Assembly: GCA_001563335.1 (NCBI GenBank)
Contig: LRSL01000117.1
Coordinates: forward strand, 1 to 64,000
DNA from: Candidatus Thorarchaeota archaeon SMTZ1-45
GTDB taxonomy: Archaea > Asgardarchaeota > Thorarchaeia > Thorarchaeales > Thorarchaeaceae
Length of the DNA: 64,000 nt
Reading direction: 5' to 3'
Under the pieces are notes generated by a model that saw only the letters and a list, made by a program, of their open reading frames with translations, was not told where the DNA came from and searched no databases. This document shows, one piece after another, positions 58,855-64,000 of the stretch. Numbering within the stretch: position 1 is the first letter of the stretch; each line of letters begins with the position of its first letter. A program made the position numbers and the translations under genes.

Positions 58855-59403
58855 TCAGAAGAACTCTCGTAAAATGACACCAACAACGGTCCCAAGAAAT
58901 GTAGCCACTACCATCATGATAAAGTATACCATTGAGAGGGCTAATGCACTTAGGATGAAAGCATCAATTCCTAATTCTGGCACATACAAACCTGGAGAGG
59001 CAAGAAAAATGATAAAGAAAATCATGAAAAAGAAGGCTCCAATGACACTTGAGATTAGAGCTTTTCCAGCTTCAGCCGATGTTAGTCCAATGGGTATAGC
59101 AACAATTATTGGGATGAAAAACAAGTATGTGGCTGAACTCTCGAATCTTGCCGTGATTATAAATGAATATATTGTGGTGTCAATTAACCCAACTAATGCT
59201 GGAACTAATAACATTATCAAAAGGTCTTTCCTTCTTTCAGTCATTGATACTCCTAAAACCTTGACAATTGGTTGAGGTCTCCCATCTTTTTCGATATATT
59301 CTGGTTCTTCTCTAGTCGGAAGTGGTCTTAGAAACCCTTTCTTCTCTTCTGGTTCTTCTTCCTTTTCCGGAGCCTCAACTCTATACTTTTCCTCGTTTGC
59401 CAT
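58855..59403 (-). CDS. Four-helix membrane protein with acidic N-terminal region
   Basis: About 182 residues. The first 60 are hydrophilic and Glu/Pro-rich (EAPEKEEEPEEKKGFLRP), then four membrane helices follow (LLIMLLVPALVGLIDTTIYS, YLFFIPIIVAIPIGLTS, IGAFFFMIFFIIFLASPGL, FIMMVVATFLGTVVGVIL). No motif recognised. ATG 59403 is used; GTG 59412 is possible. Confidence 0.65.
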   Translation of the reverse strand: MANEEKYRVEAPEKEEEPEEKKGFLRPLPTREEPEYIEKDGRPQPIVKVLGVSMTERRKDLLIMLLVPALVGLIDTTIYSFIITARFESSATYLFFIPIIVAIPIGLTSAEAGKALISSVIGAFFFMIFFIIFLASPGLYVPELGIDAFILSALALSMVYFIMMVVATFLGTVVGVILREFF

Positions 59404-59546
59404 GAAGACCACACTGCTTTGCCAGAGAGTCTAGTCGCGGAATAAAGTCTTTGCATAACGCAACAAAACGAGATATTAAAATCGGAATGCAACCACAACT
59501 CCTATCTGTAGTTACATATACTCATCTTATAATCGGAGATACTGCG

Positions 59547-60678: not shown

Positions 60679-62085
60679 CTAGGCTGCTCCAATCCGTTTC
60701 AGATATTTCGAACGTATTTGGATTCCATTTAGCATTTGAACTGCTTCTTCAATTGTGTCACCCACTGCAATACCATTCAACTCAAATCCCCGAATAATAA
60801 CTTCATACTTCTCAAGATTTGGAACATAAGCAACAACAGTTTTGTTGTGACGTTTTGCTACATTTGCCACACGAGCTCCTATCTGAAGAGAAATGCCTGG
60901 AGCATAGGGCAACAAGAGCAATAGTGCTGCGTCAATGTTTTTGAATTCAAGCATCTTGTCAAGGACTCTTTCATAATCAATATCAGATGCGCTTCCTGTC
61001 AGATCACAAGGATTTCTGAATGATGCGATGCCCTGGTAAGCTGGAGTCATTGCCGCTCGCATAGATGCTTGCTGCTCCTTGTTGAACAGAGGCATCAAGA
61101 GACCATATTGTGAGGCTTCGTCACTAGCTATTACTCCATGTCCACCACTGACAGTCAATGTCCCAACTCTGGGTCCTTGCATAAACTTAGGTTTGAAAGA
61201 GAAAACCTTCGCATAGGCCATTACTTCATCCTCATCCAACGCGTGAATGATCCCATACTGGTTGAAAGCAGCATTAGTCACAGCGTGGTCTCCTGCAAGT
61301 GATGATGTATGGCTTTGAGTTGCGCGATGACCGGCCTCTGATTCACCACCCTTAAGAACAATTACTGGTTTCTTAGGTACTATCTTTTTACATACTTCGA
61401 CAAACTGTCTTCCCTCACCTTGGGCAAATCCTTCAATATATGCAAGTATAACATCAACTTGATTTTCCCTACCAAAGTACTCAACAAAGTCAGTCACCTT
61501 TGTCTGTGCAGCATTGCCAATGGATATTGCTGCAGCTATTCCCACATCCCTACCTGCAAACTCCTCAAGCCTTTCTATTAACCATCCTCCACTTTGTGAA
61601 ATAATTGCAACATTTCCCTTTCTAGGTCGAGCAACACGCTCCGAGGGTAGGAAGAATGTGTCAAGAACATCTGGCACAAAGACACCGATGCAATTTGGTC
61701 CAACCATTGAGATTTCATATTTGCTTGCAACCTCCACAATCTCTGACTGAATACTTGCACCAGATTCTCCAACTTCACTAAAACCACCAGAAACAACAAT
61801 TACAGACTTGATATTCTTCTCTCCACACTCAGTTAACACTCCTGGCACATATTTTGCAGGAACTGAAATCACCACAAGTTCGATATCATCCGGAGCTGCT
61901 GTGATTGATTTGTGAACTGCAACCCCTTCAACAGTTCCTCCTTTGGGATTAATAGGATAAGTCGGAAGGCCATTTTCAAAGGCAAGTTTCCGGAAAATTA
62001 CATTGCCTGGACTGAAGGGATTGGATGTTGAAACACCAACCACTGCAGTCACCTTGGGATTAAGCATTGTCTTGAGACCAGTCAT
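60679..62085 (-). CDS. ADP-forming acyl-CoA synthetase, alpha subunit
   Basis: A 468-residue protein of the acetyl-CoA synthetase (ADP-forming) alpha family, which makes ATP from acyl-CoA, ADP and phosphate. It has the CoA-binding Rossmann part (AVVGVSTSNPFSPGNVIF, YPINPKGGTVEG), the succinyl-CoA ligase-like domain (AIISQSGGWLIE), and the phospho-His in TQSHTSSLAGD. No beta subunit (ATP-grasp) gene is visible next to it. ATG 62085 follows GAGGGTGAGAG. Confidence 0.88.
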   Translation of the reverse strand: MTGLKTMLNPKVTAVVGVSTSNPFSPGNVIFRKLAFENGLPTYPINPKGGTVEGVAVHKSITAAPDDIELVVISVPAKYVPGVLTECGEKNIKSVIVVSGGFSEVGESGASIQSEIVEVASKYEISMVGPNCIGVFVPDVLDTFFLPSERVARPRKGNVAIISQSGGWLIERLEEFAGRDVGIAAAISIGNAAQTKVTDFVEYFGRENQVDVILAYIEGFAQGEGRQFVEVCKKIVPKKPVIVLKGGESEAGHRATQSHTSSLAGDHAVTNAAFNQYGIIHALDEDEVMAYAKVFSFKPKFMQGPRVGTLTVSGGHGVIASDEASQYGLLMPLFNKEQQASMRAAMTPAYQGIASFRNPCDLTGSASDIDYERVLDKMLEFKNIDAALLLLLPYAPGISLQIGARVANVAKRHNKTVVAYVPNLEKYEVIIRGFELNGIAVGDTIEEAVQMLNGIQIRSKYLKRIGAA

Positions 62086-62177: not shown

Positions 62178-63248
62178 TCAGGGTTTCATTTGAGCTAGAA
62201 TCTCTCTTGGCCTCGGTTCAGCTAATATGGCATGCTGAAGTTTACTCAGCAGTTTTGCTATCTCCGCGTGAATGACCTGACGTGCTGGGTCAGAACCTGA
62301 CTCAGCATTTTGAATGGCTTCCTCAACCTCTTGGTTCAATCTTTTTATAATTCGCTTTTCAAGTTCAGGTCCTCCCCATCCAAAGCCATCAAATGCGGTC
62401 TGAGCTTCAAGGATCTTTTCTTTGACATCAAGCTTATCCTCTTTCAGAACTGGCTCAATTCCTTGGAAATATTTAGCAACAGCTCTCTCAATTCGTTCCA
62501 TCTCTGAACCATTCAGATAGTTCTCTTGTTGACGATGTTTCATGAGATCCTGCAATAGTCTTGCACCCGGTGCTTCTGTTAATAGTCCTTTAGCTATCTT
62601 GACCAAGACTCGAGCTGGAAGTTCTACCACATCTCCAAAATAGGGTGAATCAGATCTATATCGATGAATTTCTCTCAGAGATTCAAGCCAGAATGTCGGA
62701 AGGAGAATATGACATCTTTTCGAATATTGCTGAATTAGTCTTTGACTCTGACCAATAAGACCAAATAGGTCATCTTCAACATCGACTTTACGATATGGTT
62801 CGACAGGTTTTGGTTGCTCCTCACCAACTAGTGGTACCAATTCAGAGTCAGAAGATCCTGCTGCTGTTCCTCCAGTAGGCACTTTTTGTCCAGCTGGAAC
62901 CTCACTCCCTTCAAGAAGAGATAGTATCTCCTGAGTTGCAGTCCCAGATTCCATCTGCCTAGCCTTATTCGATAATTTGGGTAGAAGACTCTCAATCTGT
63001 GAAAGGCGTTTCACAATTAAGCTCATGATATTCTGTGTGGAGGGTGGAATTCCTTTCATTGTGGTGGCTTCCTCCATCCATTTGCGTGTTCTCAGAAGAC
63101 CTTGAGTCAAAGAGTCGACTCTATCAGGATCGAGAGTTTCTTCAACTTGTGTGCTCAGAAGAAAGTGGATGAGTGTTGAATTCAGGGTGACAATAAGAAG
63201 AAGTCTATCTATGAGGTCTTCATATTGGAATGATGAGGAGTCAGACAT
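62178..63248 (-). CDS. Helical hypothetical protein, partner of the upstream tubulin-like gene
   Basis: A 356-residue largely helical soluble protein with no signal peptide. A Gly/Ser/Pro-rich linker (VPTGGTAAGSSDSELVP) at about residues 125-145 separates two helical domains. GGTGGTGA precedes ATG 63248. It follows the putative tubulin/FtsZ-like gene by 16 bases, so the two are probably co-expressed and may act together in cytoskeletal or division functions. Not recognised. Confidence 0.62.
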   Translation of the reverse strand: MSDSSSFQYEDLIDRLLLIVTLNSTLIHFLLSTQVEETLDPDRVDSLTQGLLRTRKWMEEATTMKGIPPSTQNIMSLIVKRLSQIESLLPKLSNKARQMESGTATQEILSLLEGSEVPAGQKVPTGGTAAGSSDSELVPLVGEEQPKPVEPYRKVDVEDDLFGLIGQSQRLIQQYSKRCHILLPTFWLESLREIHRYRSDSPYFGDVVELPARVLVKIAKGLLTEAPGARLLQDLMKHRQQENYLNGSEMERIERAVAKYFQGIEPVLKEDKLDVKEKILEAQTAFDGFGWGGPELEKRIIKRLNQEVEEAIQNAESGSDPARQVIHAEIAKLLSKLQHAILAEPRPREILAQMKP

Positions 63249-63264
63249 TATGTCACCACCAGTC

Positions 63265-64000
63265 CTATTCCATTGTATCACCTGGAGTCATGTAGTAGCT
63301 GAATAGCTCACGAAAGTCGTTTATTGCATCTACTAGCTCTTTTCGAGTCGTGCCTTTCGATCTCATGAACCAACCCTGTTTGAGGGGTGAGGCTCCGCTA
63401 TGTAAATTAACCAGTTGGGTAGCTTCGTTGATGATTTGGACAAGTTCAGGAATCTTAGGTAACCCAAGTAGAAGAAGAAGGTTCGTCCTAGGATCTTCTT
63501 CATGATATTGCACATAGCATGGGGTTATTGCAGCTCCAGGTGCAATGAACTTGTCTAGTGCCTCTTTCACATGCATGCCAAATTCTGCCTTTGCAATGTG
63601 TCTTGGTCCAGAAAGGACATAATACACACTCTCTGCATTTGGCTCATCACCAACATCTGCATAGGAACACTCCTTTACTGCATAGTCAATCATTGTTCTG
63701 AGCTGTTTTGGCATACTACCTGCGTCAGGTATGAGACCTATATCTGTATAGAGCGCAGGAACCACAACAGGGTCTAACTTTCTCGCATAGTCTGCAAGAT
63801 CAGTTGTTGGGAAAACGTCTTTCGATTTTTCCCAAACACCTGGTGAGAGCATTGCCTCAACAACATCCAGAGCAAGTGGGTTGACCAGCTCAACAAATGC
63901 TTGTTCAGTTCTTGCCTCTAAATCAGAACTCTCATCCAAAGTTGAAGGCACCATGGTTTCAATTGAGTCAATGTCCGCTATGTCGACTTCAAGCTCCCTC
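63265..64000 (-). CDS. Partial CDS: C-terminal part of a possible tubulin/FtsZ-like protein
   Basis: The reading frame enters from beyond the right edge and runs to the stop at 63265; about 245 residues are visible, starting RELEVDIADIDS. Features recalling the C-terminal domain of tubulin/FtsZ GTPases are SMPKQLRTMIDYAVKEC, SVYYVLSGPRHIAKAEFGM, ITPCYVQYHEEDPRTNLLLLLGL and the terminal helices. The GTP-binding half would lie outside the window, so the call is tentative. It precedes a helical protein gene on the same strand. Confidence 0.45.
   Translation of the reverse strand, partial: RELEVDIADIDSIETMVPSTLDESSDLEARTEQAFVELVNPLALDVVEAMLSPGVWEKSKDVFPTTDLADYARKLDPVVVPALYTDIGLIPDAGSMPKQLRTMIDYAVKECSYADVGDEPNAESVYYVLSGPRHIAKAEFGMHVKEALDKFIAPGAAITPCYVQYHEEDPRTNLLLLLGLPKIPELVQIINEATQLVNLHSGASPLKQGWFMRSKGTTRKELVDAINDFRELFSYYMTPGDTME

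Follow-up and report, generated by a model that had tools for sequence, protein, structure and literature searches.

A three-gene cluster of Asgard archaea encodes a divergent tubulin-superfamily protein between two predicted helical partners

Proteins of the tubulin/FtsZ superfamily assemble head to tail in a GTP-driven manner and hydrolyze the nucleotide at the subunit interface, where the acidic residues of the T7 loop act in trans and only in the polymer; their usual T4 loop reads GGGTGxG, with Ser, Ala or Thr at x. As far as the available parts of the sources go, a CetZ-like paralogue (Asg.Tub) occurs in Heimdallarchaeia and Lokiarchaeia next to genes that mostly have coiled-coil regions, and two coiled-coil genes flank OdinTubulin (PMC9871819), while AtubA, AtubB and AtubC and the Heim tubulins have been described more recently (PMC13394414, PMC13371889), the gene context of AtubA/B/C being seemingly not conserved between groups (PMC13394414). 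Asgard tubulins are placed in few Asgard genomes in the accessible text of a 2026 review (PMC12993045) and are given a broad occurrence in that of PMC13394414. An Asgard-specific family, fam15271 or 'integrin beta 4-like', is reported in the available portion of PMC9258230 always to adjoin tubulin/FtsZ in five Asgard genomes, with its module assigned there to four Thorarchaeota and two Heimdallarchaeota genomes. The string 'Thorarchae' is absent from the text of PMC13394414, PMC13371889, PMC9871819, PMC12583498 and PMC9856176, and no description of the gene Z reported here with both its partners, U and H, was found in the open-access literature, preprints being outside the scope of the search.

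The window, that is, the whole stretch of 64,000 nucleotides analysed here, belongs to an Asgard genome of Thorarchaeota type and ends inside a minus-strand frame (63265..64000) that forms the C-terminal part of Z, a tubulin-superfamily gene. The frame has 244 open codons up to the window edge (63265-63999) and is still open, at 302 codons in all, where the contig (C117) stops at 64173, 173 bp beyond the window. Searching this genome with PF00091 gave three places, namely two FtsZ-type genes, one of them truncated at a contig end, and, at the left end of contig C21, a fragment (locus L075; MFGSSPP...FAIGIGECGSN...FTSLGGGTGCGGTPAL...LPFEGQSSEALN) that scores 66.8 bits. Because its final 36 bp match the end of C117 exactly, this fragment is the missing N-terminal half of Z, which contains IGIGECGSN and FTSLGGGTGCGG. 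The glycine-rich loop that the first-pass annotation had expected further upstream as GGGTG(T/S)G is thus found on C21, but reads GGGTGCG. The two peptides in which that annotation had seen a resemblance to tubulin/FtsZ, YVLSGPRHIAKAEFG and LLLLLGLPKIPEL, are present in the frame at 63577-63621 and 63442-63480.

Z is a real gene and not an artefact. The frame is matched in 41 of 59 genomes, its own included, the other 40 matches having 42-97% identity and no internal stops, and across 302 codons it differs from the orthologue at locus L033 at 16, 11 and 145 first, second and third codon positions, respectively. A scan of genome contigs with a single-protein query, which reaches close relatives only, gave 31 orthologous loci in records titled Thorarchaeota (28), Lokiarchaeota (2) and 'archaeon' (1), in agreement with the archaeal origin that had been supposed for the window.

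Searched alone, the C-terminal part of Z has no match in Pfam. Three full-length orthologues all exceed the PF00091 cut-off of 33 bits, at 70.0, 68.1 and 70.0 bits (E 4.3e-19, 1.7e-18 and 4.1e-19), and a profile of 18 Z sequences retrieved from the PDB sequences 4b46, a CetZ, as its best match (E 1.4e-13), followed by the CetZ 3zid (1.7e-7) and then by tubulins. An AlphaFold2 model from an 18-sequence alignment (pLDDT 79.2, pTM 0.81) has a tubulin fold, with a low-confidence stretch before helix H7 at residues about 210-250. Foldseek placed CetZ2 at the top (E 4.4e-19), and VIA-align, in which rows that differ by no more than 1 in Z-score count as tied, matched the model to OdinTubulin (Z-score 36.0, 358 residues aligned, rmsd 2.6), CetZ2 (35.5, 326, 2.8), BtubB (34.7, 356, 3.0) and AtubB (33.9, 358, 3.0). 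The listed tubulins superpose on the model as far as residue 455-457, and three CetZ as far as 418-429, the CetZ chains being themselves shorter (330-360 residues); Z therefore comprises both superfamily domains and, after them, final helices positioned like those of tubulin. These C-terminal helices (GWFMRSKGTTRKELVDAINDFRELFSYY; 63292..63375, minus strand) lie on the end of tubulin (H11-H12) in the model. Sequence and modelled structure together place Z in the superfamily, as the first-pass annotation had cautiously proposed from the C-terminal half, and the fold prediction it had suggested for the complete protein agrees with OdinTubulin over the entire length and with CetZ over nearly all of it. 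The divergence from ordinary FtsZ remarked on in the same annotation is borne out by scores of 30.8 and 30.6 bits against the TIGR00065 equivalog cut-off of 295.2. Up to E 10, neither FtsZ_C nor Tubulin_C is listed for any of the three orthologues, and their scores against PF13809 (Tubulin_2; FtsZl-1/FtsZl-2), 18.5, 16.2 and 17.9 bits, lie under its cut-off of 27.

Active-site residues were compared in an alignment of 20 Z, 22 FtsZ, 7 CetZ and 3 tubulins, with residue numbers following L033. The residues tested in T1, T4, T5 and T6 are identical in all 20 Z; D60, which comes after N58, is Asp in 16 and Asn in four. As Cys replaces the usual Ser, Ala or Thr, the narrow T4 pattern is not matched by Z, and the combination of GGGTGCG with the D..D pattern of T7 recurs in 35 of 35 distinct full-length sequences. 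Two cysteines, C30 in T1 and C133 in T4, are each invariant (20/20); Cys occurs at neither column in any of the 22 FtsZ, and at that of C30 in one of seven CetZ. The T7 loop and H8 (FPTTDLADYARKL; 63775..63813, minus strand) contain D287 and D290, likewise invariant among the aligned Z, in columns that hold the two acids of NxDxxD in all 22 FtsZ and D and E/D in CetZ. The T7 register is taken from the sequence alignment together with the predicted helix order, and H8 of the model begins at 288, which fits a T7 loop at 284-287. The Asn of the FtsZ NxD aligns to N260 of Z, 27 residues ahead of D287, a column match that we take to be an alignment artefact. N260, itself invariant, belongs to NPLALD (63865..63882, minus strand) in the long helix before T7, which by helix order is the core helix H7, and is likely the guanine-contacting Asn. 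A reading of VNPLALD as a degenerate T7 loop without a catalytic acid was dropped, since helix order and alignment put T7 at FPTTDLAD, and an inactive GTPase was dropped because both acids are invariant there. As the tested GTP-binding residues and both T7 acids are invariant, Z is probably an active GTPase.

The free tree was built without artubulins, TubZ, BtubAB, Asg.Tub, Halo.Tub, the loci L148 and L149, and the non-haloarchaeal CetZ except one partial sequence, 3zid, and with this sampling all 20 Z group as a single clade (100/100), its stem 2.03 changes per site long, outside both the FtsZ clade and the CetZ clade. The same tree joins Z to the tubulins (96/89, with a long-branch warning), and the three Asgard tubulins form a clade that excludes it (100/100). 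Approximately unbiased (AU) tests rejected neither the grouping of Z with CetZ (p 0.313) nor that with FtsZ (p 0.477). Z is therefore a separate deep lineage whose nearest kin may lie with any of these groups; judged by its sequence, it is neither of FtsZ1/FtsZ2 type nor an alpha/beta tubulin. Of the two loci set aside from the tree, L148:1458-2804 (genome G054) has a superfamily gene that is divergent and in which the T4 loop is altered to LGSGGTGVG, next to a gene whose protein looks hydrophobic by eye, and L149:1524-3288 (G055), on a 3.3-kb contig, has two overlapping convergent superfamily frames with GGGTGNG beside a helical-looking frame, a frame pair that may be an assembly artefact.

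Z is accompanied by two further genes, H after it and U directly before it. The helical gene next to the window's Z, which had been put forward as a possible accessory factor, is real and conserved in that position: among 39 loci (truncated L062 and L072 being omitted from this count), H was seen after Z in 38 and U before Z in 35; in the four loci where U is missing, the contig end cuts through Z. Measured by first start codon, the U-Z gap is at most 28 bp in 34 of 35 loci, the exception being L055 (513 bp), and the Z-H gap is at most 26 bp in 37 of 38. The cluster is present in seven Asgard family groups and stays constant as the remaining flanking genes vary between families; eight further loci (families f9, f12, f13, f20 and f21) have Z and H in every case and U in all save L083, where it was not detected. 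Across 227 genomes of the phylum, Z was found in 72 and H in 68, always together with Z, in counts that omit weak Z matches in G051, G214 and G089, which are other superfamily members; in the four Z genomes without H, the listed Z match is an incomplete one. The two share a contig in 64 genomes and lie within 500 bp on one strand in 63 of these, H being 8.2 kb from Z in the exception, G025. FtsZ-type genes coexist with Z, not only the two of its own genome: within the family to which the window belongs, 34 of 37 genomes show three PF00091 matches.

Further searches turned up neighbours and additional copies. A second Z copy exists in three f20 genomes, G104 (L162:6423-11180), G094 and G098, and in G104 this copy is preceded by a U-like gene (E 4.8e-61), with H not detected in the 13 kb examined. 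A CoA-binding/succinyl-CoA ligase-like gene comes after H in the window (60679-62085, minus strand); 30 of 39 loci have a relative on the downstream side of H, but those of f6, f9 and f12 do not. At 58855-59412 (minus strand) the window encodes a protein of 185 residues that looks hydrophobic by eye and for which Pfam gave nothing up to E 0.01. A viral or plasmid origin was considered and rejected: no relative was seen in viral contigs, where 98 stretches were checked with two peptide patterns, and tblastn of Z against plasmids gave three records, all with E >0.1, one of them a haloarchaeal gene of the tubulin/FtsZ family.

H (62178..63248, minus strand) begins 16 bp after the Z stop, its start at 63248 being taken from an orthologue profile (the first GTG is at 63281). 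Its model (pLDDT 81.3 and pTM 0.59 overall) predicts a three-helix bundle at 9-112 and, beyond a disordered linker, a domain at 163-353 that is entirely helical and confidently modelled. No convincing relative was found in Pfam, NCBIfam, PHROGs or the PDB sequences and folds; the best Pfam match, PK_C (E 0.00064, two of 18 members), is taken as chance. A known fold was sought with the whole-H model and no convincing match was found, the best Foldseek E being 0.21 and the best VIA-align rows (Z-score 9.0) being generic bundles, with only residues 3-107 spanned by at least one fifth of the rows. U, which in this genome is on another contig than the window, is about 900-1150 residues long, with 4-7% Pro plus Gly and 30-35% charged residues in eight members, and from its sequence is a helical protein. 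It has no convincing relative in Pfam, NCBIfam, PHROGs or the PDB sequences; weak scattered matches in single or few members (best Pfam E 0.00032; best NCBIfam E 0.00015, one of 17 members) are taken as chance in so long a helical protein. A transmembrane anchor was sought by Kyte-Doolittle hydropathy, and no 19-residue window exceeded 1.59 in eight members each of U, Z and H. As convincing known homologues were not found, the roles of U and H are read from their linkage to Z.

We suggest that U-Z-H is, with fair probability, a dedicated system of filaments that has two partners private to it and stands beside the FtsZ division proteins. With its loops intact and T7 acids that act in trans, Z is predicted to assemble head to tail, driven by GTP: its subunits would bind GTP and join into protofilaments, in which the T7 acids of one subunit would complete the GTPase site of the next and so permit turnover. 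As they are nearly always encoded with Z, U and H are best read as filament-binding partners, and they (H with its helical bundle, disordered linker and helical domain) would probably cross-link, anchor or regulate the filaments through direct contact. A cytoskeletal role other than core division is likelier, because FtsZ-type genes coexist with Z and many Asgard genomes have PF00091 genes without it, so that U-Z-H would work beside the division proteins and not instead of them.

Other readings have to be weighed against this one. Z could be a third division-type FtsZ in an FtsZ1/FtsZ2 ring, with U or H as a membrane anchor in place of SepF, as the retention of both catalytic acids, the occurrence alongside FtsZ-type genes and the unrejected Z+FtsZ clade would allow; we hold this to be unlikely, given that Z falls far under the TIGR00065 cut-off, has no FtsZ_C match and is not placed within the FtsZ clade by the free tree, and that PF00091 genes without Z are common (58 of 59 genomes against 41 of 59, though a few of the 18 genomes without Z are fragmentary). 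A descent from CetZ, as a cytoskeleton of cell shape or motility with U and H as lineage-specific regulators, accords with the best PDB sequence match, with a profile alignment of 352 columns to CetZ against 157 to FtsZ and 134 to three tubulins, and with the AU test, but the free tree, for all its long-branch warning, puts Z with the tubulins, and only the tubulins superpose through the last helices (a difference to which the shorter CetZ chains may contribute), so that this origin seems similarly improbable. Finally, the invariant pocket cysteines, which no FtsZ in the alignment shares, and the stretch before H7, which by direct count is longer than that of FtsZ and could alter assembly, might suit a GTPase that does not polymerise but serves as a switch or scaffold, the actual structural element being formed by U and H; as the T7 acids act in trans and need a polymer to do so, their invariance argues for assembly, and we consider such a switch quite improbable.

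Returning to the filament system with private partners, U-Z-H is a conserved and mostly undescribed tubulin-superfamily cluster of the Asgard archaea, of which prior partial notices exist. These concern a gene that is specific to Asgard archaea and adjoins tubulin/FtsZ, and the CetZ-like paralogues of the same archaea, either of which may correspond to members of the cluster. By its description in the available portion of PMC9258230, fam15271 may be U or H; among Pfam matches, no integrin family appears in the first 25 of 46 families for U or in all 15 for H. Z reaches 72 of 227 genomes with two co-conserved partners that have no known relatives, and its hosts are the archaea closest to eukaryotes, whose tubulins bear on the origin of the eukaryotic cytoskeleton. 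Expression of the three genes would open a prokaryotic relative of tubulin, together with its built-in associated proteins, to direct test. A bolder idea, which we regard as doubtful, is that U-Z-H is a third Asgard cytoskeletal system near the base of tubulin that kept the C-terminal helices and has its own long helical filament-binding proteins, with the helical-tubulin-helical cluster of Odinarchaeota as a relative; if so, tubulin would have reached the Asgard ancestor together with associated proteins of its own, ahead of the origin of alpha/beta tubulin.

Among the known systems, archaeal FtsZ1 and FtsZ2 share with Z the GTP-binding loops and the NxDxxD-type T7 acids, whereas Z falls below the TIGR00065 cut-off, lacks FtsZ_C and occurs in addition to two FtsZ-type genes. 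Asg.Tub, compared by its description in the available part of PMC9871819, is like Z a CetZ-like or tubulin-like Asgard paralogue, but is reported there for Heimdallarchaeia and Lokiarchaeia. OdinTubulin and AtubA/AtubB (7evb/7evl, 9f6t, 9tqj) have the fold in common with Z through the last helices, and Z differs in having no Tubulin_C match and in its separate clade. OdinTubulin, like Z, lies between two helical genes on one strand, encoding 539 and 484 residues at distances of 35 and 17 bp (L175:5536-9940), a layout also present in a second genome (L176:2143-6564). Homology of these flanks to U and H was considered and rejected, as the hhalign probabilities (0.11 for U with the upstream gene, 0.014 for H with the downstream gene) do not go beyond the cross-controls (0.023 for U with the downstream gene, 0.21 for H with the upstream gene), and the U HMM gave E 0.023 on the Odin upstream gene and a better 0.0012 on an unrelated 104-residue frame. 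The best sequence match of Z remains CetZ (Haloferax CetZ1/CetZ2, 4b46/4b45; Methanosaeta 3zid), with which it shares the GTPase domain and the pair of T7 acids (D and E/D), and from which it is set apart by the Cys of its GGGTGCG loop, the superposition of its C-terminal helices on tubulin, two linked partner genes and, in the free tree, a clade of its own.
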